Assembly (NCBI RefSeq): GCF_000002865.3
Contig: NW_001865074.1
Location: 269,123 to 333,122, forward strand
Direction of reading: 5' to 3'
Source: Monosiga brevicollis MX1
Taxonomy: Eukaryota > Opisthokonta > Choanoflagellata > Craspedida > Salpingoecidae
Length of the DNA stretch: 64,000 bases
The position numbers and the translations under genes were made by a program. Under the pieces are notes generated by a model that did no database searches, was not told the DNA's origin, and saw only the letters and a program-made list of their open reading frames with translations. Positions 14,570 to 40,669 of the stretch are shown here, piece by piece; the stretch's first letter is position 1; each line of letters starts with the position of its first letter.

Positions 14570-17500
14570 ATGGACAACGACCTGTATGATGAGTTTGGCA
14601 ACTACATCGGTCCCGATCTGGACTCGGACGATGAGGTCGAGGAACTTCCCGATGAGGAGCACTTCCAAGAGGCTCGCACCCACGCCATGATGGTTCGTAC
14701 TCACACAAGCGCAGTCCTGACAGGCCAATCACACTTGTCTTTCGTGGTTGGTGTGTGTCGATGCGAGTGGCGCGAGTGTGTCAGCCTTACGATCTCGCTC
14801 TGTCCACGGCAGGATGACGATGAGGACGATGAGGCCAGCGCGCAGATCCCCGAGGCGACTGGCATGGATCAAGAGCCAGATGTGTCAGCCAGTCAAGCCA
14901 TCGTGCTGCATGAGGACAAAAAGTATTATCCAACCGCCGAAGAGGTTTACGGCCCTGATGTGGAAACCGTCGTTCAGACCGAGGATGCACAAATGCTCTC
15001 AGAGCCCATTGTGGCACCCGTGCGCAAGGTCGCTCACACACAGCTCGAAGATGAGCTTCCAGCTACCGTCTATGAGAAGGAGTGCGTTTCGACTTTTGCT
15101 TTGCAGCGTTTTTTCCCCCTTGCCCTCCCCTATTCTTTTGAGTTTGCGGCCAGCGCGCATCCTCATGGCTTCCCCGCCATGGTCTCCGGTCTGCTGTATC
15201 GTCACCTGACTTTGGACTTCTTGCCATTCCTTCCCGCGTAACCATCCCATCCAAAAAAAAAGGTTTTTGGCCCGCATGATGGAAACACCAGAACTGACGC
15301 GCAACGTCGCCTTTGTTGGACATCTCCACTCTGGTAAATCGACCCTCCTGGATATGCTCATTGAGGAGACCCACGAGGTGGAATGGGGTCCGGAAGCCAC
15401 CACCAAGCCCATTCGCTACGGCGGTACGTGCTTGACTATGCTCTTGTGCCACAAGGAGCTATTTTTCTTTTGTTTTCGTCCTATACCGCGCTAAGACCGC
15501 TGCCCGGTGCTTGTGCTCACAACACGCGGCCGTGTAGACATGCTGTTCACCGAGCAGGAGCGTGGTTTGTCCATCAAAAGCACGCCCATGACGTTTGTAC
15601 TGCCAGATACACGTGGCAAATCACATCTGGTCAACGTCATGGACACGCCAGGCCACGTGGATTTTATCGATGAGGTGACCGCTGCGGTGCGCCTGGCCGA
15701 TGGCGTCGTGGTCGTTGTTGATGCCGTCGAAGGCGTCATGCTCAACACGCATCGGGTCATCAAACAAGCCGCACTGGCCCGAGTGCCCATCACCCTCATC
15801 ATCAACAAGGTCGATCGCCTCATCCTTGAGCTCAAGCTGCCCCCTGCCGACGCCTACCACAAGCTCAAGCACACCCTTGACGAGGTCAACAGCATCGTCA
15901 TGACGTATAGCGAGGGTCTCGAAGACGTTGCCTTATCCCCTCTCAAGGTCCGAGTCCTTTTCAGACCCCGTACACCCCCGGATTTCTTTCGAGCCTTCAA
16001 TCTTGCATTGGCGCCACGGCATCGGTCCATGGCCCACACAGCCTTGACCTCCCTTCTGACTCGCTTTTCCAGCTCACGGGGTGATTTGATTTTGCGCCTG
16101 TCCTACGTTGTCCGGGCTTGTTGCATGCTGGGCCTTGCGATAGGGTAACGTGTGTTTTGCCAGTGGTCTGTATGGATTCTGTTTCAACTTGTTCTCCTTT
16201 AGCAAGCTCTACCAGGAGCACTATGCCGCCGATTTCAATCCCATTGCTCTGGCGCAACGGTTATGGGGTGACCTGTGGTTCAACGAGGAAACTCGTTCCT
16301 TCGTCCGCAAGCCACCCAACAGCAAATCCAACCGCTCCTTTGTACAATTTATCCTCGAGCCCATGTACAAGCTCATGGGACAGGTGTGTTTTTGTTTGCC
16401 ACGAGCTCGCCGCCGTTGCGCCGTGCAGAACACGTCTTTTTCTCATTCGCATCGTACCATGCTTCAAAATTAAACTCCATTTTTTTTGGTTTTGAATAGG
16501 TTGTCGGAGACGTTGATGGTTCTCTGGAATCCACCCTGCGGGATGTTGGCATCTCACTTAGCCACGAGGAGCGCAAACTCAACATCCGCCCTTTGCTCAA
16601 GGTCGTTTGCCGCCGCTTTTATGGCGAGTCTCTGGGCTTTACTGACATGCTCCGTGACTTTGTCCCTTCGCCCGTGGCCAATGCTCCACGCAAGGTGCGT
16701 GATCGATGCCCTGCTTGCAAATACAGAAGACTGGTCTCGTCACACGCTCCTGTCGTCGGGTCCTCGGAGATTCCCAATCAATGGCTGTCGTTGGCCAAGC
16801 ACCCAGACAAGCTTGTCTAAGAGCTTGTTCCTCATACCGGCCTGCATTCGTACATCAACTTTCTGTGCTCCCCGTTGCAGGTGGAGCTCAACTACTCAGG
16901 GCCTTTGAGCGAGGACGATGAGCTGGCTCGTGCTATGATGACGTGCGACCCCAAGGGCCCGCTCATGGTCAACATCACCAAGTTGCTGGTTTCGCAGGAC
17001 GGCTCACGTTTCGATGCCTTTGGTCGGGTCATGAGTGGTACCCTCGAGGCACACACAGATGTCAAGGTGGGCCAGCGCCTGTGCTCGATTTGTTTATGGT
17101 CACTACCCCTGTGTTCTGGTCTTTCGCTTTGAGGGCGGCAGGAGCTGTTTGTATGCGCCTCTGCACCTCAAGGTTCCAGCAGGGCAGCTCATGGATCATG
17201 TGCCCATGTCACTGTCTAGGTGTTGGGAGAGAACTACACGGTCGACGACCCGGAGGATTCTTGCATCGAGCGCATTTCCCACTTGTATGTGTCAGAGGCT
17301 CGCTACCGCATCGAGGTCAACCGGGTGCCTGCCGGCAACTGGGTGCTGATCCAAGGCATCGACGCACCCATCAACAAGACGGCCACCTTGACTGATGCAA
17401 AGAGCGACGATGATGTACATATCTTCCGCCCACTCAGTTTTGATACCACCGCACCGATCAAGATTGCCGTGGAACCCGTCAACCCATCAGAGCTGCCCAA

Positions 17501-18722
17501 GATGACGGATGGCCTGCGTAAAATCAACAAGAGCTATCCGCTCGTTACCACTCGGGTCGAAGAGTCGGGTGAGCACGTGATTATGGGTACTGGCGAGCTC
17601 TACCTGGACTGCATCATGCATGATCTTCGCAAGATGTACGCAGAGATTGACATCAAGGTCGCTGACCCCAGCGTGGGTTTCTGCGAGACGGTTGTGGAGA
17701 CCTCCACTCTCAAGTGCTTCGCCGAGACTCCCAACCAGCGCAACAAGCTGACCATGGTTGCCGAGCCGCTTGATCGCGGCCTGGCCGAAGACATTGAGAA
17801 CAAAATTGTTTCCCTTGACTGGCCCAAGAAGAAAGTCAGTGAATTTTTCAAGACCAAGTACGAGTGGGACGTTCTGGCAGCCCGCTCCATCTGGTCGTTT
17901 GGTCCCACGAGCAACGGCCCCAACGTACTCCAAGACGACACGCTGCCGGCTGAAGTGGACAAAAAGCTTCTGTTTTCCGTTCGCAGTTCCATTGTCCAGG
18001 GCTTTCAATGGGCTTCGCGTGAGGGCCCACTTTGCGATGAGCCCATGCGCAACTGCAAGTTCAAACTCTTGGACGCACAAATTGCTGAGACGCCCATCCA
18101 GCGCAGTGGTGGTCAAATTATCCCCACTGCGCGCCGCGTCGCTTACTCGGCCTTTTTGATGGCCACCCCCCGCTTGATGGAACCTTACAACTTTGTTGAA
18201 ATTCAAGCCCCCGCCGATTGCGTGGCTGCCATTTACAACGTCCTGCCCCGTCGTCGTGGTCATGTCACTGAGGAGAGCCCCAAGCCTGGCAGCCCTCTCT
18301 ACACCATCAAGGTATGGATCAATCGGTTCCTTATTCGGCATGCCTTCACACTTGTTCGGTCGCTTGTCAATGTCATGTTCCTTGCTTATTTATTTCATGT
18401 TGATCGTGTTCTCGCGCAGGCCTTGATTCCTACCATTGATTCATTTGGGTTTGAGACGGACTTGCGCATGCACACCCAAGGTCAAGCCTTTGCTTTGTCT
18501 GTCTTTGATCACTGGCAGATTGTTTCCGGGGATCCCTTGGACAAGTCGGTTGTGATTCAGCCCTTGCAGCCCTCGCCTGCCCCGCATCTGGCGCGCGATT
18601 TTATGATCAAGACGCGTCGTCGCAAGGGTCTTTCCGAGGACGTCAGCATCAACAAGTTTTTCGACGACCCCATGCTCCTCGAGCTGGCCCGAGAAAATGT
18701 TGTGCTCGGAGACAGCTATTAA
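14570..18722 (+). CDS. EFTUD2: EFTUD2/Snu114, U5 snRNP GTPase
   Basis: A multi-exon EF-2-like GTPase, roughly human size (about 970 residues). The acidic N-terminus [21 protein letters not shown] is the EFTUD2 signature. G-domain motifs are G1 GHLHSGKS (about 15318), G3 DTPGH (15642) and G4 NKVD (15806). EF-2-like domains II-V follow, with [54 protein letters not shown] and a C-terminus with [20 protein letters not shown] and [22 protein letters not shown]. The protein contacts PRP8 and BRR2 in U5 snRNP and regulates spliceosome activation and disassembly. Visible exon starts include 14813, 15263, 16501, 16881 and 17220; the last intron is about 18313-18420. The acceptor at 15262 follows an A-run instead of a pyrimidine tract. 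Start chosen at a GCCACCATGG context. Confidence 0.95.
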
Positions 18723-23135: not shown

Positions 23136-26100
23136 TTACTCCATCTGTGACTCTTCTTCAAAGCCAAAGCCGCGCTGTAGAAATCAAGGAAGGGATGCAT
23201 GCGTGAGGCAAAGGGCGTCGCACAAGTTTGACAGGAGCTCTCCCCCACCCTACAATTTGCCCAATTGACATGCGAACAATGAAAACATACCTCCATGGAG
23301 TCGGTTCCAGTGGCTTCGGCACCCATATCGTAGAGGCCAAAGGCGTCACTTGATTGGGCTTCTGCACGCCCCATGTCGTAAAGCAGCTCGTTATCCGAGG
23401 CTGGACTCGTGGCAGCATTTCCTGCATTGCCCATGTCGTACAAAAGCTCGTTCGTCGAAGCAGTGCTTGTGTTTGTCTCGCCAACATTGCCCATATCATA
23501 CAATTGCTGCGCCTCGCTGTCAGCTTCCTGCGCTTTCCCCGTGTCCGCGGCTCCCATGTCGTAGAGGTCCGCACCAGCCTAGGATAGCAAATCGACCCTT
23601 GGTCAGCGCTCAAAGGCAAAGCACGCAACAGTCAAAGGACGGGGACTGACCCGAGCAGCTGAGGCTTCCACTACCACGAAGACCTGCAAGACAGGCCATT
23701 TGACTCAAGCATGAGATGACAATTCCAAGAAAAAGAAAGGGAAAGAGAAAAAGAAAGAGAAACGAAACAAAGGCGGCTGCGAATGCACCTGCAGCGCCTA
23801 GCTCATGCCACCGCTCACCTTGCCAGGAATCACCAAAACACCATGTTGGTCAGCGCAATCAAAGTACTCATGCTCTCCCACAGTGCCATTGTTGTTGCCC
23901 ACGGCGTCATCAAGCTCCACCCCGCACCGAGGCGAACGCTTGACTTTGTGCGGGCCAAAGTAGCGTAGCGTGCCCATGCCATAGCCCACGACATCGACGC
24001 GGCTGCCCACGTCACTCGCCGTAGCCACTAGCGCATTATTCCCGAAAAAACAACATCAAGATGAGGTTGAATATTGTGTTGAAGCAAACGACTCAGCGAG
24101 TGCGAAAACCACCTACGTCGGCGTGTGAGAACAGGTGCCGACACATTTCCCTCGTTGCCATAAACTTCGTCCGTTTCGGGCTCGGAGGCGTCATCCACTT
24201 CAATGTCTAAGAAAGAAAAGACAGGGTGCATCGTCATGTCCAGGCAGAGACATGTTTGCCCACGCCTGCATGGGCGACAACGCCACATTGCCAGGGCAGA
24301 TCACCGATATCAACGCACAGTTGCTTTGGAAGAGGCTGGACATGTCCGAATCAGTCTCCAGCGCCGCTAGAGCCTTGACCAGCGTCTCAAAGCTTGGGCG
24401 CTCGTGACGATCATGCAACCAACACATGGACATGATCTTGAAGACCGGCAGGGGGCAATCCGCTGGGCAAGGAAGCCGAAAACCTATAGCATGCCCGTGG
24501 CACACACGTCTCAGCTTTACGAGCGCACGAGGAGCAGCGAAAGATACGTGTTTCGCGTTCAAAGCCCAGCAGCTTTTGCATGTGCACTCACCGTTGGTCA
24601 CCTCGATCCACACGCGTTGGTTGTTCCAACCGGTGTATGGCATAGCCGCCTTGGTATACACCTCATACATCAGCACACCAAAGGCCCACACATCGCTCTT
24701 CTCGCTGAAAATGTTATCTTCCAGCGCCTCGGGGGCGGTCCAGCGCACAGGTACATTGCCACCCCGCGAGCGATAGTAGGCATCATCCGTGCTCTCACGG
24801 GCCAAACCAAAATCGGCCACCTTGGCCGTCAGCGATGCCGACAACAGCACGTTGCGCGCCTAGCCCACAATCAAATCCCCAGTAGGTACCCGCCCATTAG
24901 CATGTAAGCGATTGAGCGATGGAATGAACCATGGAACGAACGAAGGATGGTCAAGACACAGCCGGGGGACGAGTCAACGAAAACAAAACAAACAAAAAAA
25001 AAAAAAAAATAAAAATAAAAATACAACTTACAGCCAGATCGCGGTGAATAAAACCGAGCGAGTGGATGTGGGCCATGCCGCTGGCCACCTGGCGGCTCCA
25101 GGTCACTTGCTGGGCCGGTGTACACGTCTTGTTCATCACGTAGTCCTTCAGAGACCCGTTGCGCATGTGCTCCAGGACCACGTAGATGGGGCGGCCCTTG
25201 GTGATGACACCAATGAGGCCCACCACATTGGCATGCTCCATCTGTGCCATGACCAAGGCCTCCTCAAGCAGTTCCTCCCGCTCGTTGTCCATAGCGTCTT
25301 TGCGGAGGGATTTGGCGGCAACCTGGATTTCTGGGGCCTTGGGCTCACTGAGAGAGGCCTCATAGACGATGCCAAAGGCGCCTTGACCCAGCTCGCTGAG
25401 GACGATGAGCCACTCGCGATTAAGCTCGCGCGGCTCCTTGGAAAGCTGCAGGTTTGAATCCTGCTCAAGACGTGCCTTGAGTACTAGAAGTTGGAACCAC
25501 ACAACACAATGAGATCACATACGACTTTTACACCACTCTGCAGCACAGTAGACCCCTTTTCGTGGAACGTACCGGCAAAATCAGCTGCACGATTGGCTCG
25601 CGCGCGCATAACGACCACAAGAATGACGGCAGCGATGATGATAATAAAGACAATGGCACCTGGCACAGAACATCAGGTTGAGAGACGGCACAGACAAAGA
25701 CATTGAAATTGGTTCGCAAAGGCCTATTTTTGAGTTTGAGGTAGACCAATCGAGCTAACCTGCAATGCCACCCACGAGAGCGGTGTTGGCAGCGCTGTTG
25801 TCCCCCGACGCCGCTCGTTTCCAGCAGCATCGGTGGCCGTTGCAAGAACGTAGACCGGTTCTGATAAAAGTGTGTTTCCATGCGGTGAGTGGCGGGTATG
25901 ACCAAACGTAGCTGACGCGCCAGTGAACCATCGTGAAGCATGCGGATAGGAGAGAGCGCACCGTTGTTGGCCACGAACGTCGATGAACTGAAGTTGAACA
26001 CCGGCACAACCGTCGTGCCCGAATTGTCGGTCACAGAGACTTCGCGGTGCAGATCGACTTCGGCGGAGTCTGCCTCCACGAGTAGATCCACGGATGAGTC

Positions 26101-29100
26101 GGGGCAGACGACAACTGGAGGGGTGATGTCTCTCACATCGACGGTGATGTTGCACATGGCCGAATTGCCAGCGGCGTCCTCAATCGTTGTCTAACAGCGA
26201 CAGACCAGATGTATGTGAAAGAGCACCCGAATGAAGCGTTGGGCCACTATGCGCACACCCGCACTGTACGCATGACCTGTCTCCCTCCCACCCATCAAGC
26301 AACCCACCGTCACCATGGCGCCGGTGTCTGACAGTCGATATCGGTTTTGAAGACCCTGGACGGTGCGAGTCACAACTCCGGCATTGTCCCAGGTCGATGA
26401 CAACGGGGGCGCCAGCTCATCAGGATTGTGAACCTCGACTTGGCCGTCGGACGCATTGGGTGGGACTTGCAACACCACGGTCCTTGGGCATGGTTCCAAG
26501 AACATGGGGGTTTGCGGATCATACACCGCTAGCTGAAAGGTTTCCGTGGCCAGATTTAGGTCATCATCCATGGCCGTCACCGTCACCGTGAAAGGGCTTG
26601 CCGACAGGTTGAGCGCAGCACCATTGCCCGGAGAGAAGGCCACATCCACGATAGGGGAATCATCCTGGAAAGCAAAGAGCACACCATTGACAAAGAATCG
26701 AGCTAAAATTCCGTCTTGAGCAATGTTGAGCACGGCATAGCTTGCGTTGGGCAGAGTGGCGATAGTCGTGAGGCCGTTATTCAGCAGTTGACTCTCCATA
26801 GTTGGAGGGTCGGGATCGTACTCAGTTAGCTCGGCAAGCGCTGCGTTGTTGGGGTCGCTGGTGTGAAGCGTGTAGCGAAGCTTGAACTGCAGCGCGGCAG
26901 AAGCGGTGGGCATGATGGCCGTTCGGGTTTGTGGAAACTGTACACGAATGATCATGGCCTCAAACACGAAATCGTGGTCCATTTTAGGACTGTAGCCAGA
27001 GATCACCTCACGACCATTCTGATACGCGATGGACGCGCTCTCAAGCTTGTACCAGCGATCGGCCAAAAAGTCAGATTCTGCTCCATCTGGACGTGTAACG
27101 CCTGCAAAGGCAATCTCTACCACGGCCGGAACTGGGAAGGTTGACATCCATGGACAATGAGAGCCAAGCTTCAACGCAGAACTGGAAAAACCACGCAGCA
27201 AGGAGCGGCAGCAAGGACACACCGCTGGCGCTACGCCGACGATAGTCTGGGGCCTCATCTTGCTCGGGAGCCAATTCCAGCGAAGTGGCCGAATCTATTC
27301 AAAGAACGTTAATTTGTTTTCGTGACGCAACGCAGACTGGGGTCAGGATAAGCACAGCTATATTGCAAAGTCGGAGGGCAAACTGTACGTACACTCGTCA
27401 ACAGCCAACTGCAGGTAAAACTGCATGGAAAGCGCATCACTGCGTCGACGGACATGGACACCATGTTCGCCGTTGGCGATCTGTACCCGCCATGACATTT
27501 TGTTTGTTGTGCTGCCGACGGACACGCCCGCGGCCGTCGTATCGAGCAGAGTAAAAGTTTTGATCTTCAGGTGTTCAAAGCTTGGCGTGACTGTTTGCAC
27601 AAACATTGCTGGCTGAAGTGTTCGAGTTGGAAAGGTCACGGTTGTGGCTGTGCTCTCATACTGTTGGATTGGCAGCTGATGCAAGTGCAAGTCAGACGAT
27701 AGGCAAAGGTGAGTAACAGGACTGATGCGAAGAGATATTGGATGGACAAGCCACGGTGAGTGCAGAATGATCTGTCTTCACGATGCGGCCAACCTCAAAG
27801 GAGCAAGGCTGAAGAGCGATGTTGCCGGCCGAATCCTGCGCGCTATATCCAAAAAAATAAGGCGAGCCATAGACAGAGAAGCTCGAGTTGGGCAACGGCT
27901 GACTCGCATCCGCGATTGGCTGCAAGTTGAGATCCACGTTATCAGACACAGAGGGCAAAGTCCAGTCGACGCGGACTTGGTCCACGCCCAGCGGGAGGCG
28001 AGCAGCATCCGTGCTGGCTAGCCCAAAGGCAGCACGAATTGCGGACAAAAGTTCGCTGGATTGGGGGCAGTTGAAGAGCTATCGGAGTACCACAGTGTTT
28101 TGAACACGGTGAGCTGGTGTGACGTCAAGAACCTCAGGTACCAAGGTTTTAGGGCCTCTGTTCCGAACCTTCGGGGCGACGTTATCCACGTTGGAGAGCC
28201 GACTGGCTTGAGATGGGTCGTTGAACACCAGCATCAGGCGATCCTGACCACGTGTGGCAAAAGAAAAACCTTGCACGGCGCCTGGCAGCCTAAGTGCAAT
28301 CATGTCGATTCAGGGCAGAAATGGGGTAGGGTTAAGTTCAGTGTGGATGTGGCAACTCGGTGGCCACTCAAGAGTAGCAAGAGCAATGTCAAACATTTGC
28401 ACGTACGACGCAGGTTCAAAGCGAAAGTTGATGGCGGAGAGCGCGTAGCTGGAAACGTTCAGGCCAGCCGCCAGGTCAGCTGCTTCAAGGCCAAGAGTAA
28501 AAGGTAGCGTGCCCGTTGAATACAGGCACTCTCCCCCAGTAGAGAGCCACATGCTAGCCACACCCAGTGTGGACACGCCATCGATCATGCTCAACGTGAC
28601 CTGTCGTCACATCAAATTGCCAGAGGCCATTGAGTGAGGTCAACCACAACCATAACCAAGAAAAAAAAGAAAAAAAATTATCGAAAAAAAAAAAAAAAAA
28701 AAAAAAAACGAAAGTAGGCTGCCGTCCCCAGGTTTCGGGCTAACCGTCACGTTGCCAGGAATGGTGTAGGTCGGTTCGCCCATAAAGGTGCTGGCACACT
28801 GCGAACCAGTGACAAGCAGAACAGGAAGATGAATCAGTAAAGCGACAAAATTAGTCGGCAAACCAAAGTGTGTGCAAGTGACACCATTCACTCAGCATGA
28901 CAAAGAGAGAAGGAGGGATTGTCCATACCCAGGTCATGGACCAGGTCAAGTTGGCACTGGTTGCAAATTTCGAAAGATCCAGCGTGAAGGGGACATTTTG
29001 CCCTCCGTGAGCGTTCACGATACCAAAGTTGAGTGCATCATTCTCAAACAGATCGCCAGTGAAGGAAGGTAGGTCTGGTGTCGCGGCTGCATAAACGAGA

Positions 29101-30659
29101 AGTGGACAAGCGTGAGATGGATTGGACATCAAAGCCTTTCTTTTGATCATGACGCCATGCCGTCAATCCCAGATGGACGCACAGCTGAGTTCATCTGGCG
29201 CAACCAAAATGTCGTATTGGGCATGCGCTGACGCCAATCGATCAATGACGGTAGAGGCCAGAGCAAAACCTTGGCGGACCGTTATCTATCCACGGCGAGG
29301 CGGGTAAGGCAGGTAAGGGCACGCGGCAAGTTGGGTCGCCGATTCGCCAACAAGGGTCGAGGTCGGTAGGGGTGCGTTCAAGGCGCTACACGTACTGCAC
29401 GTTCACAAGAGAGGCTGCCACGCAGTCGTGGATGCGTGTAAACAAATTCAAAGATGTAAGGTTCTTGGCGAGCATCGAGCTCCACGATGCCACCCGTCAC
29501 CATCGCAACTGACAATAGCAACATGAGCAGTGGAAAGCATAAGAATGCGACAACAAAAAGTGGCAATAGGTATGGCGTGCAAAGAATAGAGATGCTTTGA
29601 GATGTGCAAGGAGCAGCGTACAGATGGGGTCGCTCGAGGCCGATAGGCGGGCCGTGGCATTCATGCTAGGTGGTAGGCCAAGAACAGAGACTTGATCTGC
29701 GACACCGTCACCATTGACGTCGGGGAAGGCGACGGCAAGAGCCTGGCCAGGGTTGGTATACGCGGAGCTTGAGGCAGGACATTGAAGAGAGGGTACGCGT
29801 AGCTGTGGACACGGCGGATTAGTCGCACAAAACGGATGAGATTGACTGTCAGAATGATGGGAGATCACGCGGGCGGTGTGTTGAGGCGGGCATACCGTCA
29901 AAACCTGCGATGCAGTGCACCCCGCAGTTGAAATGACACCGGCTGACACGCAAGATGTCTCGGCATCCGTCACTAGAGAGAACACCACTGTTTAAGGCGA
30001 GATGCTTGACAAGAGCAAAGTCTCCGGTCTTCGACAGGCTTGGCCGATTGCGTGGTGCATTGTGACCTACCACTCAAGACGATCTCAACGGTGCGACCTG
30101 CATAATACTTGTCAATTGCCCGAGCGCGAAGTGCAGTCCCGAGGCTGGGCAAAGAAGCCTGAAATAGAAAGCGACCCTCCACTGCTGTGGGCGTGAGGGT
30201 GGTCACCAACGGCGCTGTTGTTTCATCCTCAGAGTGCTGCAGCGTCAGCTGAGGCAGACCCAGGCCCGAGGCGCGCTGTCGAGTGGTGGGCGAGACAGCA
30301 GAAAGAGTGAGGGTGCAGTCTTCAGAAGATCATGAGAAGAGGTAAGGAAACATACAACTTGTATGTAGCTGGTAAAGAGGGTCATGTTGTCAGTGGCTTG
30401 CTGAACAAATCCTTCCGTAACGATCTAGGACAGTCGGGATTGAGCCGACAGTCATTACAAAGCCGAGGCACTCAAGCTGGGGATGCATTTGATGCACGGG
30501 TCGTACGGCTTCGACCACTTGATCAGTGGTTGCAAGAAAGGTGGGTGGGATGCTGTCATCTAAAATGTGACGATTCAGCCAACAGGTGCTTGTCAGGACC
30601 AGTGTCAGAGGATAGAAGCGCAATCAGAAAACAAGAACTCAGAAGTCTTATCCCCCGAA

Positions 30660-30696
<37 letters not shown>

Positions 30697-32598
30697 AAGT
30701 TTGACCAAGAGGTTCGACAACTTCTGAACAGGGGCCTACATTCGCAAGATCCAGAATAGGGGTCGAAGACTGTTCCAGGGGCGCACAGACGGCAGGATGG
30801 GCGTAGATACATGCCAAAGGTATCGCCTGCCTCAATGACGCTGCTCCAGCAATTAAATGCAAATCATCAGCGCATGGTGGCGACAAGTCGATTATGACGG
30901 ATGCTGCAGGCTGACCTGGCGTCATCGAGCGAAGGCAGATAGCCAACGTAATAGTTGCAAACGTCCTCGGATGGGTCATAGTCGTAGCCAAAGCACTTGC
31001 CGAGGGCGGTGAAGCGGCACAGGTTCTCACACTCGGTACGAGTGTTCTGGCCTGCCATGGTTTGTGGTCACTGCATCAACGGCGGCTATGGTTTTCCTCA
31101 CAGTTGGAACCTTGCGTTTTAAGGATGCAGAGTTCGTACCGCGGCTGTTCAAGGTATAGACGGGATTGTAGAAGCGACGACCGTAGGCAACCCAACGAAA
31201 GTCGTCTTCGCCCGAGAGCTCGCAGCTCAGACAGTTTGCAGGGCATCTGCCAGCACAACTGCTGGGCTCCTCGGTAACGGTGCGATCAGCAACGCATAGG
31301 TGCGTTTCTGCGGGACAGAATGGAAAATCATGAAGAAAAAAAAAAGGGATCAAGTTCATGAGAAGCCGCTCCAAGGGAGCCTGGTGTGCCGACTGCACCG
31401 ACTCGGAGAATACATACTTTCACTCAGAGACAGGGAGACGGATTGGTGCTGTAAGCAAGAACAGATAACGCATGGCGCAAGTCACCGTGAGCTGATACTA
31501 TAATCAACGTAGGCCAGGGGTGGGAGCGATCTTGTGCTGTAGGCGCATGCTTGACCCGCGTACCAGTTGAAGTCGAACGCCGGGGCCAAGCGTAAGGCTC
31601 ATAGCCTCGAGCCTGGTGTCCACTTGAATGACGTAGGCTGCGGCAACGGCAAGAACAAACCAAAAAAACAAGAACAAAAAAAAAAAAAAACCAGTGAGAG
31701 ATTGAAGAAATTCGAGTTGGCTGTATCAGACTGCTCCCTAGGAAGCTGCAAAGCAGCAAGCGACGGCGGGGCATACATACACTCTGCCGAGGGTGGGGCG
31801 GGAAAGTACAGCAGGTCATCGTGGGTCGCGTTGCCCATGGTTGAGTTTGTTTGTTCGTTGATAAAGTGGTCTGATGTGAGCCTAGCATCTGAGGCAGAGC
31901 CCTGAAACACCAAGTTCAAGGGTTGTTCGGCTACTTGCTCTGACGCTGTGGCCAGCGCGTGGGGAAGGGCTTTGTTTTGACATGCTGGAACAATCTGGTC
32001 GGCATCCAGGTTGGAGCAGAGCTGGCAAAAGGAGGTATTGGCGGCCAGGGCGGGGTTGCCGTTGCCGCATACCCCTTGAAAGCACTCAGTAGCGCAGTAC
32101 ATGCCGTCGGCGCATTCGCTAGCGTCTGTGCAAGCGTGAAAAAGGGCGTGGTGGTGGTCAAAGGGCACGATGGCGCTGGTGCAGACGTGATCGGGCAATA
32201 GCGTCAAAGAGTTGGCGACGTTGCAGCCTGGCCTGGAGTTTGGAAACAGGCGGGCAAAGGCTGGTTGAGTCGGGATTGCTGGGGCGAGAGCTGTGGGGAG
32301 AGGTTTGCTTACAGTTCGTAGACGGCCAAATCAGCGTGACACAGCTTGATCCCGGCACCTAAATCCAGGTGAGGTGAGCAGACACAAATGAGATAGGACA
32401 AAGCGGGAAGGCGGGATGCGGACCAAACATTCATGGTCATGATGCCATGTACACACCGGGTTCACAAAGGCCGGTCAAACCCGATGCGCCATCACTGGCG
32501 GCCCAGGTGAGGCTGTGCCCCTGAGCCCTGACGCCCAACGTCGAGGTCAAGAGCAGGGCCACCAGGGCGATTGCCGCCCCTTGGCTCGAAGCCGGCAT
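23136..32598 (-). CDS. Receptor tyrosine kinase A with HYR-like ectodomain, CAP-Gly tail and YDMG repeats
   Basis: The first of two tandem RTKs, with at least 15 exons. It begins MPASSQGAAIALVALLLTST (signal peptide, ATG at 32598). Early exons are 32598-32457, 32358-32313, 32232-31781, 31637-31564 and a 31-nt exon 31448-31418. The ectodomain has a Cys-rich start, a PAN-like segment (ENLCRF..CFGYDYDPSEDVC, about 30950-31045), a Ca-binding-like DVNGDGVADQ, and HYR-like segments with ITPPVVVCPDSS. A transmembrane helix (AIVFIIIIAAVILVVVM) is at about 25620-25665. The kinase has GQGAFG, VAAKSL, HRDLAARN (split by an intron), DFGLA and PVRWTAPEAL. After the C-lobe, a CAP-Gly domain is encoded at about 23817-24028, then five LYDMG motifs (about 23320-23566). 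I place the end at MERGFGFEEESQME (stop 23136-23138) after a last intron. Likely a plasma-membrane receptor; the ligand is unknown. Exon borders between 26200 and 31300 are uncertain. Confidence 0.83.
23817..24028 (-). other. CAP-Gly domain of RTK A
   Basis: About 70 residues: SDVGSRVDVVGYGMGTLRYFG, then CGVELDDAVGNNNGTVGEHEYFDC and HGVLVIPGKV. The glycine positions, the GVELD core and GNNNG in place of the canonical GKNDG identify a CAP-Gly fold. CAP-Gly domains bind the EEY/F C-termini of alpha-tubulin, EB and CLIP proteins. The Lys-Asn-Asp motif needed for tubulin-tail binding is altered to Asn-Asn-Asn, so the partner may differ. Confidence 0.85.
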
Positions 32599-33585: not shown

Positions 33586-35269
33586 TTACAGGGCGGTGTG
33601 GCTGAAGCCTTCAAAGACTTCGGAGGGTCGCTTGTGCAGGGTCGACGGCGCTTCTGAATATTCATATTCCGTCTCCGTGGTCGCGTTCAGGTTCGGGGCG
33701 CTCGAATATTCATAGGCGTTGTCGGACACATTCAAGTTGCTGCCAGCCGAGTACTCGTACTCACTTTGATTCAGCTGTGGATACACCCACCAAAGCGACA
33801 CGAGGGTGCATGGTGAGTCGAGGCATCCTCTATTCTGAAAAACAAAAACAAAAACAAAAAACAAAAAAAAAACCGCTCCTTTTCTCCATTGCCCCTGAGT
33901 TCCTCATAACAACAATTCAAGAGCACAATCTGGGTCGACAAACCTTGGGGCTGGCCTGCGCACTGATGGGCACAGGCTGCTCGTACATGTTCTTGGGATC
34001 CTGGTCCACAAGCTCATAAGCACTGGTGCCAGCAGTGCGACTGCCCTGCACAACCTGCTGGCCTTGACCTGGAACATCATAGGCGACGCCATTGACGGGC
34101 ACGGGCTCCTCGTAGACGCCGTCGGCGGGCGCGGGTGGCGCCAGCGAGGGCCGCCCATTGGTACTCACGGACATTGAGTACTCGTACGCGTTGTCACCTT
34201 CCTCGGTTAGAAGCACAAACACCTTGGACGGCACCACCAAAACACCATGCTTATCGGGGCAGTTGAAATAGGTATGACCACCCACGACACCATTGTTGTT
34301 GCCCAGGGGCTGATCGAGGTGTACACCACAACGCAAGTGACGCTTCACGTGATGGGGCCCATAGAATCGCAACATGCCCGTGCCGTAGCCCGTCACAGTG
34401 ACCCGGGCTCCCACGTCGCTCGACGTGGCCACACGTGTCGAGCTGGCGCCATCCAATACATCCTCATACTGGTTGGGCATTTCTGCTGAATTTTGCACTT
34501 CCAGATAGTCGTTGGCAGGATTGCTGCTACCTCCCTTCTCCTGGTTCTTGTCAAATCGTACGTCCACATAGGAGTTGGCCACCGCCGTCTTGGTAGCGGA
34601 CGCAGCCGGGGATGCAGCCGAAGCTGCACCAGCGCCTCCCTCTTCCGCGACGTCAATCTCCCCGAGGCGCTGTTCCAACTCGCTAAACGTTGGCCGATCT
34701 TCGCGCGTGAGCGCCCAGCACGCGTACATGACTTTGTACACATCGCTGGGACAATCAGGCGGACACTCGAGTCGATAACCTGAACGCAGCCACAATCACA
34801 ATCGCCCATGAGTACTCGATGTCACGCATCAAGATGTGAAGTGGCAACGCAATCAAAACATTTTGCCAGATGACAAAAGACACGCACCGTTGGTCACCTC
34901 GATCCACACGCGTTGGTTGTTCCAACCGGTATATGGCATAGCCGCCTTGGTATACACCTCATACATCAGCACACCAAAGGCCCACACATCGCTCTTCTCG
35001 CTGAACAGATTTTGATTGAGCGACTCGGGGGCGGTCCAGCGCACAGGTACATTGCCACCCCGCGAGCGATAGTAGGCATCATCCGTGCTCTCACGGGCCA
35101 AACCAAAATCGGCCACCTTGGCCGTCAGCGATGCCGACAACAGCACGTTGCGCGCCTAGCCCACAATCAAATCCCCAGTATGTACCCGACCATCCAATGA
35201 TGAAATGAGCGATGAACGAACGAAGGATGGCCAAAACACAGCCGAGTCAACGAAAACAAACAAACGAAC

Positions 35270-35330
<61 letters not shown>

Positions 35331-38300
35331 AACAATAACAACCACAACCACAACAACACTTACGGCCAGATCGCGGTGAATAAAACCGAGCGAGTGGATG
35401 TGGGCCATGCCGCTGGCCACCTGGCGGCTCCAAGCCACTTGCTGGGCCGGTGTACACGTCTTGTTCTTCACGTAGTCCTTCAGAGACCCGTTACGCATGT
35501 GCTCCAGGACCACGTAGATGGGGCGGCCCTTGGTGATGACGCCAATGAGGCCCACCACATTGGCATGCTCCATCTGTGCCATGACCAAGGCCTCCTCAAG
35601 CAGTTCCTCCCGCTCGTTGTCCAGAGCGTCTTTGCGGAGGGATTTGGCGGCAACCTGGATTTCTGGGGCCTTGGGCTCACTGAGAGAGGCCTCATAGACG
35701 ATGCCAAAGGCGCCTTGACCCAGCTCACTGAGGACAATGAGCCACTCGCGATTAAGCTCGCGCGGCTCCTTGGAAAGCTGCATGTTTGAATCCTGCTCGA
35801 GGCGCGCTTTGAGGGCGTGAAAGTCGGCCGCCTGGTTGGCACGAGATCGCATGGCGTACAGAACGATGATGGCTAAAATGATAATGAGAGCACCCGCACC
35901 GGAAGCAGCGCCCACAATCACCGACGACGTGCCCGAAGCAGCTGATTGCGCCGCGTTGGCGCCCGCACCGGCCACTCCCTCCACCAATACCACCAACACG
36001 CAAGGGGTGGCAGCATTGCCTGAGCTATCAGTGCCAGAAACCTGAACCCAGGTCTCAGTATCGGCGGCAAACTCAAAGCTAGTCACGTTGAAAACGAGCT
36101 CGATGCTCTCACCCGAGTTATCGGAGACTGTAACCTCTCTCTCCAAATCCACTGTGACAGATGCATCAGTGGTAAGCTGCGAGATGGTCGCTGTGGGACA
36201 CGTGATCTGTGGCGGGGTTTCATCTGTCACGTAGATGAAGACCACGCATGTGGCCTGATTGTCATGATCATCCATGGCAATGGTGGTCACGTTCGCGCCT
36301 GACTCGAGGTACGAGTAGGACTGGCTGTAATACAAAACAGTGACATCCTCGACCTCATCGTTGTCGAAGATTTCACTCTCCAAAGGAGACACCTCGTTCT
36401 CGGCAAATTCTGCTTCACCATTTGTTGCCGTGGCCGGCACGACCTTGCTCACACTGCGGGGGCAACCAGGTACAAAGCGAGGCGGCTCAATGTCCACCAC
36501 GTTGAAAATATACGAGGCCGTGGCAAAGTTGAGGTCATCATCTGTGGCAGTGACTGTGATGGTGTGGCCGTCGTCATCGATTTCAAGTTCTGTGCCATTT
36601 TCAGGGCTAATCACAATATTGCTCAAGGCTGAAGCGTCCACAACCTCGACGCGCTTGCCGTTCAACAGGATTGTCGTTTTGTCGTTGGTCGTGGTCGTGA
36701 TATGGTATGTAAAGGTAGCGTACGGCTTTTCTGGATCTGTCACGAGTATCGCTTCTCCGGATGCAAGGTCGGTGCTGGAAATGACCGGGGGATTCGGGTC
36801 AAAGTCGACGATTTCTAAGAGCTCGGCGTTGTCGTTGTCGTCCGCGTGGAGCGTGTAAATGAATTCAAGCTTGAAATGCGCATCAATCGTGGCGAGAGTC
36901 ACCTCGCGGGTCTTAGGATAGCGTACGCGCAGCGAGACGGACGAGAAGACAAAGTCGACATCGAAGCTGGGGCTGTAGCCGCTGAAGACTTCTGTATTGT
37001 CGATGGCGTTGTAGCTCACCACGGCGCTCTCAAGCTTATACCAGCGATCCTCCAGATAGGGGGCTTCGTCACCATTGGTGGGCTCCTGGATACCGGAGAA
37101 CATGATTTCCACGACGGCAGGAATGTCCGTGTCTCGCAGGTAACGGTTTCCCTCGTCCTGTGCATCATCCAAATAGACACGCTTGTTGGCATACTCGTCA
37201 ATGGCGAGCTCGACGTAGAACTGCATTTTGTAGGCATCCTCCCGCGAACGAATGTGGATGCCATGGATGAGCGCAGACTTGAGAGCTGTCAAGGTGAGGA
37301 GATTGGTCATCTGATTGACAGAGGCGGTCAACGGGTCGATGGGCGTGTCCAGGAGGGTGAAGGTCTTTGTCTTCAGGTCGAGCAGCCCCGATGAAAGGCT
37401 CACGGGCAAATTGGTGGTGTGCAGCACCTGTTGCTCCAGCGCAACGGTCGTCTGTGGCGAATCAAACTGGTCAATGGGAATCTAGACAAGCATGGGTCAG
37501 CGCAAGAGCGCGCCGCATGGTCAGTGAGATGGGCGGAGGGAATGGGCCAAGGTGCCAACGCGTTAAACAGAGCACACTTGGATTGTGGTTGAAGCGCATA
37601 CCTCAAAGACACATGCCGCCTCGGCTTCATTACCGCTTGCGTCCGTGGCCGTGTAGCGCACAAAGTATGGTGACCCATAGACGGTGAGGGTAGAGTTGGG
37701 CTCGGGCTGATTCTCATCGGGAATGGCCTCGGTATCCAGGTCGACATTGTCGACGGCAATGGGTACTTCCCAGGTCACAAACACACTGTCGGTGCCGAGC
37801 GGAAGGGTGGCGTCCTGGTTGCTCTCCAGGTTGAATGTTTCGCGAATATATTGGAGAATTTCGCTGGTTTGCGGGCAATCGATGATGCGTGGTGCCGTGC
37901 TATCGACGTTGGTCATTCGCGATGCAAAAGTGGGGTCATTAAAGACGAAGATGAGTCGGTTGTCAGCACCGGCCTTGTAAGTCGTGGCGCCATCATCAAG
38001 CAGGTCTACGCTGGACTGGATAAAAAAGTTGATGGCCGTGACGCCAACAGAGTAGAGGGTAACGCCGTCATCGAAAATGTCGTCCGGCAGCTGAATGGGT
38101 AATTCACCCGCGCTGTGGATGCAAGCACCATCGGCCGTGCTCCAGAGAGTGCCGTTGCCAACGTTCATGACCCCGTCAATGAGGTTGAGGGTGAGCGTGG
38201 TAATGCCAGCGTCAATGTACGTCGGATTGGCAGCAGCCGACTCGGTGCACCATTCCAATTGCCATGTGACGGTGATTTCAGTGTTGTTGGGCGAAACCTC

Positions 38301-40669
38301 GAGGGAGAAGGGAATGTTGCCAATGTCCGTGTTGAGATCGTTGACGACGCCAAAGTTGAGGGTAGAGTTTTGAATCAGGGTGGCATTAAACTCAGGGAGA
38401 TCTGGCGTGATTGAGCTTAGGGTGGCAGGGGCCAGGAAGATGTCGTATTGGGCACGAGCGCGCTCGAGGTGATCGATGACTGAGGAACCCATGGAGAAGC
38501 CCTGTAGGACGGTAAAAGAACGCTCACAGCGGAGCTCGCCGCGGAGGGCAGCGTGGGTCCACATATAGGCAAAGGTGTATGGTTCTTGACGGGGTTCAAG
38601 GCTGACAACGCCAGTGCTGACACCGAAGAAGGCGTCGTCGGTGTATTCTGCGTCAAGCGCGGCGTCAACATCATCGTCAAGTCCTTGCACGGTGACAGTA
38701 TCGGCGATACCGTCGCCATCAGTGTCAGGAAAGGCAAACTCGACGGCCTCACGGGGGTTGCTGTATTCGAGGGCCGAGGCTGGGCAATCGAGCGAGGGCA
38801 CGAAAAGAAGAAGGTCGATCTGTGTCGTGCAGCCACCGACAAGGGGGCTGCCGTCCACAACACACGAGGCAAATCCATCATCGACTGCGAGAACGAGGGC
38901 GTAGTTGCTACCAGGCAGGTAGGTGGTGACCGCCGTGGCGCGTTCGGTGGTCGATTTGGCCGGAAGAAGGACATCAATGCGAACAATGCCGACGGCGTCG
39001 GCGACGGGGCTAGTGAGGATGGTGAGCGGCGAGGGACTACCCACCTGGCCTTGTGGGTAGACGGAGAAGACCGCTACATCAGGGTCGCGCACTTGGACAT
39101 AGTTGGTAAAGAGGATGCGCTCGGCGGTGGTGGTGGCAGTGGAGACGAGGTACTCTTCGGTAATGTAGGCTTCGTCGTTGGCGTCTGAGACGTGGATGGG
39201 GGTTGGGGGCACCGAGTTGTATTCGCAGGCGTTGGCATACTTGTTCCAGACGGTACCGGGGTTGCAGGTGCGGCAACCCTGGCGAAGGTACACCTCAGTT
39301 GTGTCGGCGACATTGGTCGCCTCGGTGTCGAGGTCTGGGGCGTAAGACGTGAAGATGCGGCAGCTGAGGGTGCTGGTGTCAAACTGAAACCCAAAGCAGC
39401 CATGGGCAGTGCCGGGGGCAGCGTTAATGTCGGCGCACTTGGCAAAGCAACCTTGTTTGTTGCTGACAGGGGCGGTGACGGGGGCGATGGTGCTACTGGC
39501 GATTCCTCGGCCACGGGCAGCAAAGTAGAAAGGTGCAAAGTCGCTGTTCTCGGACATGGCGCAGGAGAGGCAGCGGTCGGGGCAGTTTCGGAAGCAACTG
39601 GCCTGGCCCTGTTCGTCGGTATAGCCGACCATTTCTCCGGCGACGCAGAGGCGCTGTGTGTCGGCGGGCCAAATGTACAGAGGGTTGTTCAACGTCAGGC
39701 TAACGCCTAGGCCGATATACAAGGCCCGGGTGTTGAAGGCTTGATCGACCTGCACTGCGTAGCTGTTGATGTAGGTACTGCCCTGGTACACCTCGGAGAG
39801 TGAATCAATGTACAGTACATCATTACGCTGCGGGGAGACTAGTTCATCCGTATCGACGGCTTGGTGCAGGCGGGCGGGATTGGTGAGGTTGACGCCAGTT
39901 TCACCGTCATTTTCGACGGGGGTAAAGACGACATCGACCGGGCGACCGGTGGCGGATTCAATGCTGCCCGCAAACAAGGGGGAGACGGGGTTGAGGTGGC
40001 AGTTGGCGAAGCGGTCGTCAAAGGGTAGGAGGGCACAGGGCTGGCAGTAACCAGAAACACCGCTGGCAGTGTCGGGGGTCGTGCCCTCGGGTACGCCGTA
40101 ACCGCAGAGGCCCAATTGACAGGTATCGCTACAGTACAGGCCGGCGCTGCATTCGCGATCGCCGGTGCAACCCGGGAAGGGGGTGTCACCAGGGGAGTAG
40201 TCGATGGCGCCGCCGGTGCACATGAAGTTGCTGGAGGCTCGAGTAGCTTGACTGAGGCTACTTGCATCGCAGCTGTGCAGCGCAGCACGGTCAGGCCCGG
40301 CCGGGTCCGTGGATATGAGCTGTGGCAAGAAATGGGCGAGGGACCGGCCAAGTCAGAGACGCAGCACGTACCTGGTGGTGTAAACGGTGTTTTGATCGAA
40401 GCAAAAGTAGAGGTTTGATTCTAAGGGTCGGTTGACATTGGGATCGACACGCCTCCTGAGTGAGACAAGTTTGTTGCGTATAGGTTGCTGCTCGCGAGCG
40501 AGGCGGGCCGTGAACCGTGGTGAGGCAACGTACCGTCATCACAAGTACCCGAAATGGACTCGGGATCTTCAAGGTAAGAATAGGCAAGTGGATCGGCATC
40601 GTTGCTGGCCTGGCACCCCGCCATCCAGGCGCAGGCGATCAAAAACAAGAGGCCTGTGGACCACCGCAT
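33586..40669 (-). CDS. Receptor tyrosine kinase B with HYR-like ectodomain, CAP-Gly domain and Tyr-rich tail
   Basis: Seven exons (40669-40534, 40420-40372, 40272-37602, 37481-35364, 35155-34888, 34779-33944, 33774-33586) sum to 6267 nt, 2088 residues. There is a signal peptide (MRWSTGLLFLIACAWMAGC). The Cys-rich region has CTGDRECSAGLYC and CFRNCPDRCLSC, then a PAN-like segment (GCFAKC..CFGFQFD), DTDGDGIADTV, and HYR-like modules (CPQTSEIL..TDASGNEAEAACVFEV; CPRSVSKV; ETPPQITCPTATIS..GTDSSGNAATPC). The transmembrane helix is at about residues 1473-1496. The tyrosine kinase spans about 1530-1790 with GQGAFG, VAAKSL, HRDLAARN, DFGLA, PVRWTAPESL and Tyr-Tyr in the activation loop. A CAP-Gly domain (about 1864-1934) is followed by a tail with YEYS x4, VYEEPVPV, MYEQPVPI, YVDV, YLEV and QYEDV, typical SH2/PTB docking motifs. 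An upstream in-frame Met at 40708 is possible but would bury the signal peptide. Confidence 0.9.
34220..34432 (-). other. CAP-Gly domain of RTK B
   Basis: SDVGARVTVTGYGTGMLRFYG, CGVHLDQPLGNNNGVVGGHTYFNC and HGVLVVPSKV reproduce the CAP-Gly pattern (GTLRFVG, GVELD, GKNDG, YF-C, G-FV). It lies wholly inside the 836-nt sixth exon, C-terminal to the kinase and between two clusters of tyrosine motifs. The same module and order occur in RTK A, so the arrangement is not an annotation join across genes. Confidence 0.88.
35272..35346 (+). repeat. (AAC)n microsatellite in RTK B kinase intron
   Basis: About 22 AAC units, partly AAT, inside the intron that interrupts HRDLA|ARN. Read as RTK B sense it is (GTT)n. 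The homologous intron of RTK A (about 24860-25035) instead contains an A/T-rich run (A15-type with TAAAAA units), so the two paralogous introns carry different simple repeats at the same place. Confidence 0.9.

Follow-up and report, generated by a model that had tools for sequence, protein, structure and literature searches.

In the available text of PMC10263333 (Bajaj 2023), the RTKC family of receptor tyrosine kinases (RTKs) of the choanoflagellate Monosiga brevicollis has 10 members, most of which combine a cysteine-rich/HYR ectodomain, a transmembrane (TM) segment, a kinase and a tail with a CAP-Gly domain, so that the layout of a receptor kinase with a CAP-Gly is already known. The kinase of one member, RTKC8, was cloned from a cDNA library, is active and phosphorylates peptides of its own tail in vitro; the fastest substrate is the Y1990 peptide, and the Y1897 substrate peptide comes from inside the CAP-Gly. 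The same text prints the RTKC8 cloning primers and three tail peptides, and it raises a possible link of RTKC receptors to the cytoskeleton, there attributed to Manning 2008. Full-text searches that paired CAP-Gly with choanoflagellates brought up PMC10263333 and a second paper on cofactor E-like; in a broader full-text literature search, CAP-Gly was found in PMC10263333 alone among the matches listed. For the CAP-Gly of CLIP-170, the accessible part of PMC9062740 reports that K224A, K252A, K277A and a double mutant of the GKNDG motif weaken microtubule binding.

A tandem pair of RTKC receptors

We analysed a window of 64,000 nucleotides of the M. brevicollis MX1 assembly (contig NW_001865074.1, positions 269,123 to 333,122, here C21). 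It contains two tandem RTK genes on the minus strand, RTK B and RTK A, with the following features (window positions):

37602..40352, minus: RTK B ectodomain ORF with an HYR match (PF02494, spliced model; bounded upstream by the ORF edge)
35364..37481, minus: RTK B exon with HYR repeats, TM segment, juxtamembrane region and kinase N-lobe to HRDLA (PF02494, PF07714)
34888..35155, minus: RTK B kinase exon 2 (ARNVL...DFG...APE; spliced model, tblastn)
33944..34779, minus: RTK B exon in which the kinase C-lobe ends, followed by tail tyrosines and CAP-Gly (GT/AG model, PF07714, PF01302)
34220..34414, minus: RTK B CAP-Gly (PF01302; C21:303342-303536 in the genome profile search)
33586..33774, minus: final exon of RTK B, carrying three YEYS motifs and ending in the stop codon (spliced model)
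23136..32598, minus: RTK A (RTKC8) gene (putative start ATG 32598-32596, stop 23138-23136, by eye)
24585..25481, minus: RTK A kinase tract resembling RTK B 34881-35813 (blastn)
23816..24010, minus: RTK A (RTKC8) CAP-Gly (PF01302, 69.4 bits; C21:292938-293132)

Outside this pair, ORFs at 15495-18722 (plus strand) resemble an EF2-like spliceosomal GTPase of the U5-116K/Snu114 type.

By exact sequence matches, RTK A is RTKC8 of M. brevicollis. The gene part of the RTKC8 reverse primer has a single, exact match in the window, at 24323-24355, that of the forward primer matches both paralogues exactly, and RTK A encodes all three published RTKC8 tail peptides exactly; the RTKC8 peptide GTVGEHEYFDCADQH is encoded at 23843-23887, within the RTK A CAP-Gly. 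The RTKC8 tail also contains five YDMG repeats (23320-23563, minus strand).

When the five exons of RTK B are joined at GT/AG sites (40352-37602, 37481-35364, 35155-34888, 34779-33944 and 33774-33586), the frame stays open for 2053 residues between the ORF edge (40352) and the stop (33586). The ectodomain ORF is cysteine-rich as judged by eye, and the model has a single TM segment predicted from hydropathy (VIVGAASGAGALIIILAII, in exon 35364..37481), followed by the kinase and a tail of 298 residues. The tail has 18 tyrosines, 3 of them inside the CAP-Gly, and in addition to the YEYS motifs of the last exon it carries YEEP, YDVP, YELV and YEQP motifs in exon 33944..34779. The HYR ectodomain, single TM segment and C-terminal CAP-Gly are the layout of the RTKC family, and the kinase is of RTKC type, both by its exon identity to RTKC8 and by its place in the best-scoring cluster of 8 kinase loci in this genome (see below). 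On these sequence features, RTK B is a choanoflagellate RTKC member and a tandem paralogue of RTKC8. The initial annotation of this DNA, which set the two genes against animal receptors and regarded an RTK with a CAP-Gly as a distinct layout, is thus superseded on both points, since both genes are choanoflagellate RTKC receptors, one of them an exact match to RTKC8, and the combination is already in print for the M. brevicollis family in the available text of PMC10263333.

The annotation had also placed a CAP-Gly just after the kinase in both genes, in RTK B inside one unspliced exon, and had proposed a profile search as a check. Here it holds up well. PF01302 matches the RTK B ORF 33917-34795 (minus strand) over its full length (profile positions 1-65 of 65) at 67.9 bits, above the cut-off of 26.5 (E 7.4e-19), and RTK A at 69.4 bits; the RTK B ORF carries the end of the kinase C-lobe as well (PF07714 positions 217-258), placing kinase end and CAP-Gly on one open exon. 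The range first annotated, 34220-34432, is the CAP-Gly plus six residues upstream. The two domains are 66% identical, with dN 0.28 and dS 1.28; their conservation at the protein level is in keeping with purifying selection, although this dS is near saturation. In the RTK B domain, GNNNG replaces GKNDG and an arginine replaces the groove tryptophan. AlphaFold2, run on the two window domains as a 2-sequence alignment, gave a mean pLDDT of 38 and was uninformative on the pocket, and the predicted CAP-Gly fold of RTK B rests on sequence homology.

The kinases of the pair are far more alike than the rest. By blastn, the 0.9-kb tract is 87% identical overall with the intron included and 96-98% in the exons (97.8% and 96.3% at the DNA level for the first two kinase exons of RTK B versus RTKC8), and the kinase exons have a dS of about 0.06, compared with 1.28 for the CAP-Gly. 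The edges of the tract are sharp and its flanks are without comparable identity; beyond it, the CAP-Gly is the sole part of the tails that blastn matches between the genes. Gene conversion between RTK A and RTK B, covering the larger part of the kinase, is therefore probable, and the tandem pair is, judged from these identities, one of largely homogenised kinases with diverged ectodomains and tails.

A class of receptor CAP-Gly domains in the genome

An exon-by-exon PF01302 search of the whole assembly gave 31 matches, of which 11 are of the receptor class. Nine of these lie in RTKs and the others in loci L037 and L038, and the same 11 places were the best ones with the RTK B CAP-Gly as query. 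As counted from the kinase matches listed and from tblastn on the fetched loci, at least 8 RTK genes have a CAP-Gly after the kinase, namely RTK A, RTK B and the genes in L031-L036, which argues that the layout is not due to chance; the L035 gene has two such domains. HYR and TK matches are present in all 6 RTK ORFs of L031-L036, and CAP_GLY lies in the same ORF as the kinase in 5 of them, L031 having it in later exons. Three further features of the class are as follows (positions in each locus):

L037, 4677-9998, minus: ORF of 1774 residues with a TNFR-type cysteine-rich match, a TM segment and a CAP-Gly in the tail
L038, 5020-6501, plus: ORF holding the first part of a receptor-class CAP-Gly, spliced on
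L035, 3789-4680, plus: tandem pair of receptor-class CAP-Gly domains in an RTKC-like receptor, only one of the two split by an intron

With the RTK B kinase as tblastn query, no kinase was found in L037 (10 kb, about 2.3 kb of it masked) or in L038. The L038 ORF with the first CAP-Gly part gave no Pfam match and no predicted TM segment; its end resembles PHACTR proteins.

When the RTK B kinase was searched against the genome, the 8 best loci among the matches listed were RTK B and 7 other CAP-Gly RTKs, at 51-94% identity and E 5.6e-84 or better, the next match standing at 38% and E 2e-52. This search was scored exon by exon on 142 of 408 candidates, which would push down the rank of any RTKC kinase split by introns. 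Short kinase pieces of 49-63% identity, on C35, C22, C50 and C26, have no CAP-Gly match nearby, and split RTKC kinases without a CAP-Gly may therefore exist in this genome.

Of the 11 class domains, 6 (L031, L032, L033, L034, which reads GTIE at this site, L035a and L036) have a phase-0 intron immediately behind GxN[ND]GTVx; RTK A, RTK B, L035b, L037 and L038 have none at that place. The TM segment AISGGTFLVVLVIVLAILI is identical in the RTK ORFs of L033 and L036, which suggests a recent duplication or conversion. A search of viral contigs for relatives of the class returned 28 pattern matches, 0 of which were confirmed.

The peptide pocket is replaced alike throughout the class

To compare pocket residues, we set the 11 class domains against 16 canonical ones, made up of 7 near-complete M. 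brevicollis domains (L001-L006 and L012) and 9 from PDB alignments, which we take to be human or mouse. The 7 come from 20 non-class matches, of which 1 was without a locus and 12 were intron-split pieces that were left out. In a tree of these 27 domains, a branch with 100/99 support separates the class from all the canonical domains.

Counted by column in CLIP-170 numbering, the W241 position is Arg in 11/11 class domains versus Trp in 14/16 canonical ones, the F272 position is Leu in 11/11 versus Phe in 14/16, and the F236 position is aromatic in 0/11 versus Phe in 13/16. The aromatic groove for EEY/F binding is thus absent, with 0/11 class domains aromatic at all three positions; the canonical exceptions are 2/16 without the Trp and 3/16 without the F236 Phe. 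In addition, the T234 position is His in 11/11 class domains and in 0/16 canonical ones. The GKNDG motif reads GNNNG in RTK B and RTKC8 and G[NRLK]N[ND]G across the class: K252 becomes N, R, L or K (K/R in 5/11), while N253, the asparagine of GxN, is kept in 11/11. A basic residue is missing at the K224 position in 10/11 class domains (K/R in 11/16 canonical ones), whereas 10/11 have K/R at the K277 position, and the glycine skeleton is kept across the class. Among the pieces left out, the Trp position is W in L009, L018, L022, L023 and L030, Y in L028, F in L029 and L in L014. L027 reads R at the exon edge of this position and its upstream piece ends GMW, so that Arg occurs there once outside the class, and ambiguously.

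A structural reference is provided by Trypanosoma brucei TBC-B, for which the available text of PMC3806363 places Leu180, Trp185, Val201, Phe207 and Phe216 in the core under the groove floor and has the terminal aromatic of the ligand held by Leu180, Val201 and Phe216. In the register to CLIP-170 that we counted from residue spacing, the TBC-B counterparts of the changed positions line the groove; TBC-B has Leu at the F236 position, yet an EVF end is bound in the crystal (PMC3806363). In the passages of the literature covered here, we found no description of the rewritten RTKC pocket.

What the receptor CAP-Gly may bind

The account that we favour, and consider rather probable, is that RTK B is an RTKC member in which the CAP-Gly would act as a second docking site, with a ligand other than, or beyond, EEY/F. 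By extension from RTKC8, the activated RTK B kinase would phosphorylate tail tyrosines, which in turn would recruit SH2/PTB proteins, and the CAP-Gly would offer a separate site for a short peptide needing no phosphotyrosine of its own. With the Phe/Trp/Phe pocket changed to non-aromatic/Arg/Leu and an invariant His alongside, the ligand of the class most likely differs from the canonical EEY/F tail or goes beyond it, because the replacement is the same in 11/11 domains; retention of the GxN asparagine suggests that a peptide is still bound in the same groove. More tentatively, the class may have been re-specified as a receptor CAP-Gly with a His/Arg/Leu groove that is no longer a microtubule module. 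Acidic or phosphorylated peptides would be examples of such a ligand, and the tails of the receptors themselves might contain them; the module would have been shuffled among receptor kinases, a TM receptor in which the search found no kinase and a protein that lacks a predicted TM segment.

The initial annotation had pointed instead to microtubules or to EEY/F tails, and a CAP-Gly that ties the receptor to the cytoskeleton through microtubules or the tails of EB and alpha-tubulin was also suggested by Bajaj 2023, in the available text of PMC10263333. This link is weakened by our data and we regard it as unlikely. The domain does match the CAP-Gly fold family (PF01302), it keeps the Asn of GKNDG in 11/11 and a K/R at the K277 position in 10/11, for which reason some microtubule affinity may remain, and candidate ligands are at hand in the genome, where EB1 ends PEEAY and alpha-tubulin ends GAEEY. 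However, the residues that grip the aromatic end are replaced in all 11 domains, which makes canonical microtubule or EB binding doubtful, and two lysine positions at which substitution weakens microtubule binding by CLIP-170 (K224A and K252A, in the accessible part of PMC9062740) are affected as well, the first not basic in 10/11 and the second not K/R in 6/11. Since the pocket has changed, we rate re-specified binding as likelier than canonical binding to microtubules.

A structural or self-association module, which packs on the kinase or dimerises the receptor with no external peptide, would explain why glycine and core positions are invariant and why the tails of RTK A and RTK B match by blastn at the CAP-Gly alone; it is nonetheless improbable, given that L037 and L038, in which tblastn finds no kinase, contain class members too, and that the peptide-contact Asn is invariant. 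Least probable by far is an artefact, in which the gene model would be fused, the gene would be a pseudogene or the exon would go unexpressed. We rejected a splice or gene-model artefact on account of the one open exon that spans kinase end and CAP-Gly and of the layout common to at least 8 genes; in addition, dN is below dS between the two window domains, and the RTKC8 kinase came from a cDNA library with tail peptides that are substrates in vitro (PMC10263333, available text).

Comparison with known systems

What these comparisons appear to add to the published layout is a pocket rewritten alike in every class member found. The published reasoning from a CAP-Gly to a possible cytoskeletal role rests on a domain in which the usual pocket is altered in every member found. 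If the ligand is indeed a different one, receptors in the closest unicellular relatives of animals would have taken up a cytoskeletal module and given it a new specificity.

The class shares with CLIP-170, CLIP-115 and p150Glued the Pfam family, a full-length alignment and the Asn of GKNDG. It differs in that the pocket Phe, Trp and Phe and, mostly, the Lys of GKNDG are replaced, and in its setting in a membrane receptor, whereas those three are plus-end proteins. The CAP-Gly of CEP350 (CAP350; PDB 2coz), the second-best PDB match, also reads GNNNG but, unlike the class, keeps the groove Trp and Phe. The GNNNG change alone is therefore not telling, and we rejected the idea that it would by itself mean loss of microtubule binding.

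Among receptors, M. brevicollis RTKB2 is likewise a choanoflagellate RTK with an HYR ectodomain and a phospho-tyrosine tail, but has RM2 repeats in that tail, and CAP-Gly is not mentioned in the available text of PMC3584944. The closest system is RTKC8 itself, which has the same order of HYR ectodomain, TM segment, kinase and CAP-Gly-bearing tail as RTK B and first two kinase exons that are 96-98% identical at the DNA level. RTK B differs in its own ectodomain sequence, in the end of the C-lobe (43% identical over 42 residues) and in a tail with YEYS, YDVP and YEEP motifs where RTKC8 has YDMG repeats, so that near-identical kinases would serve different tails.
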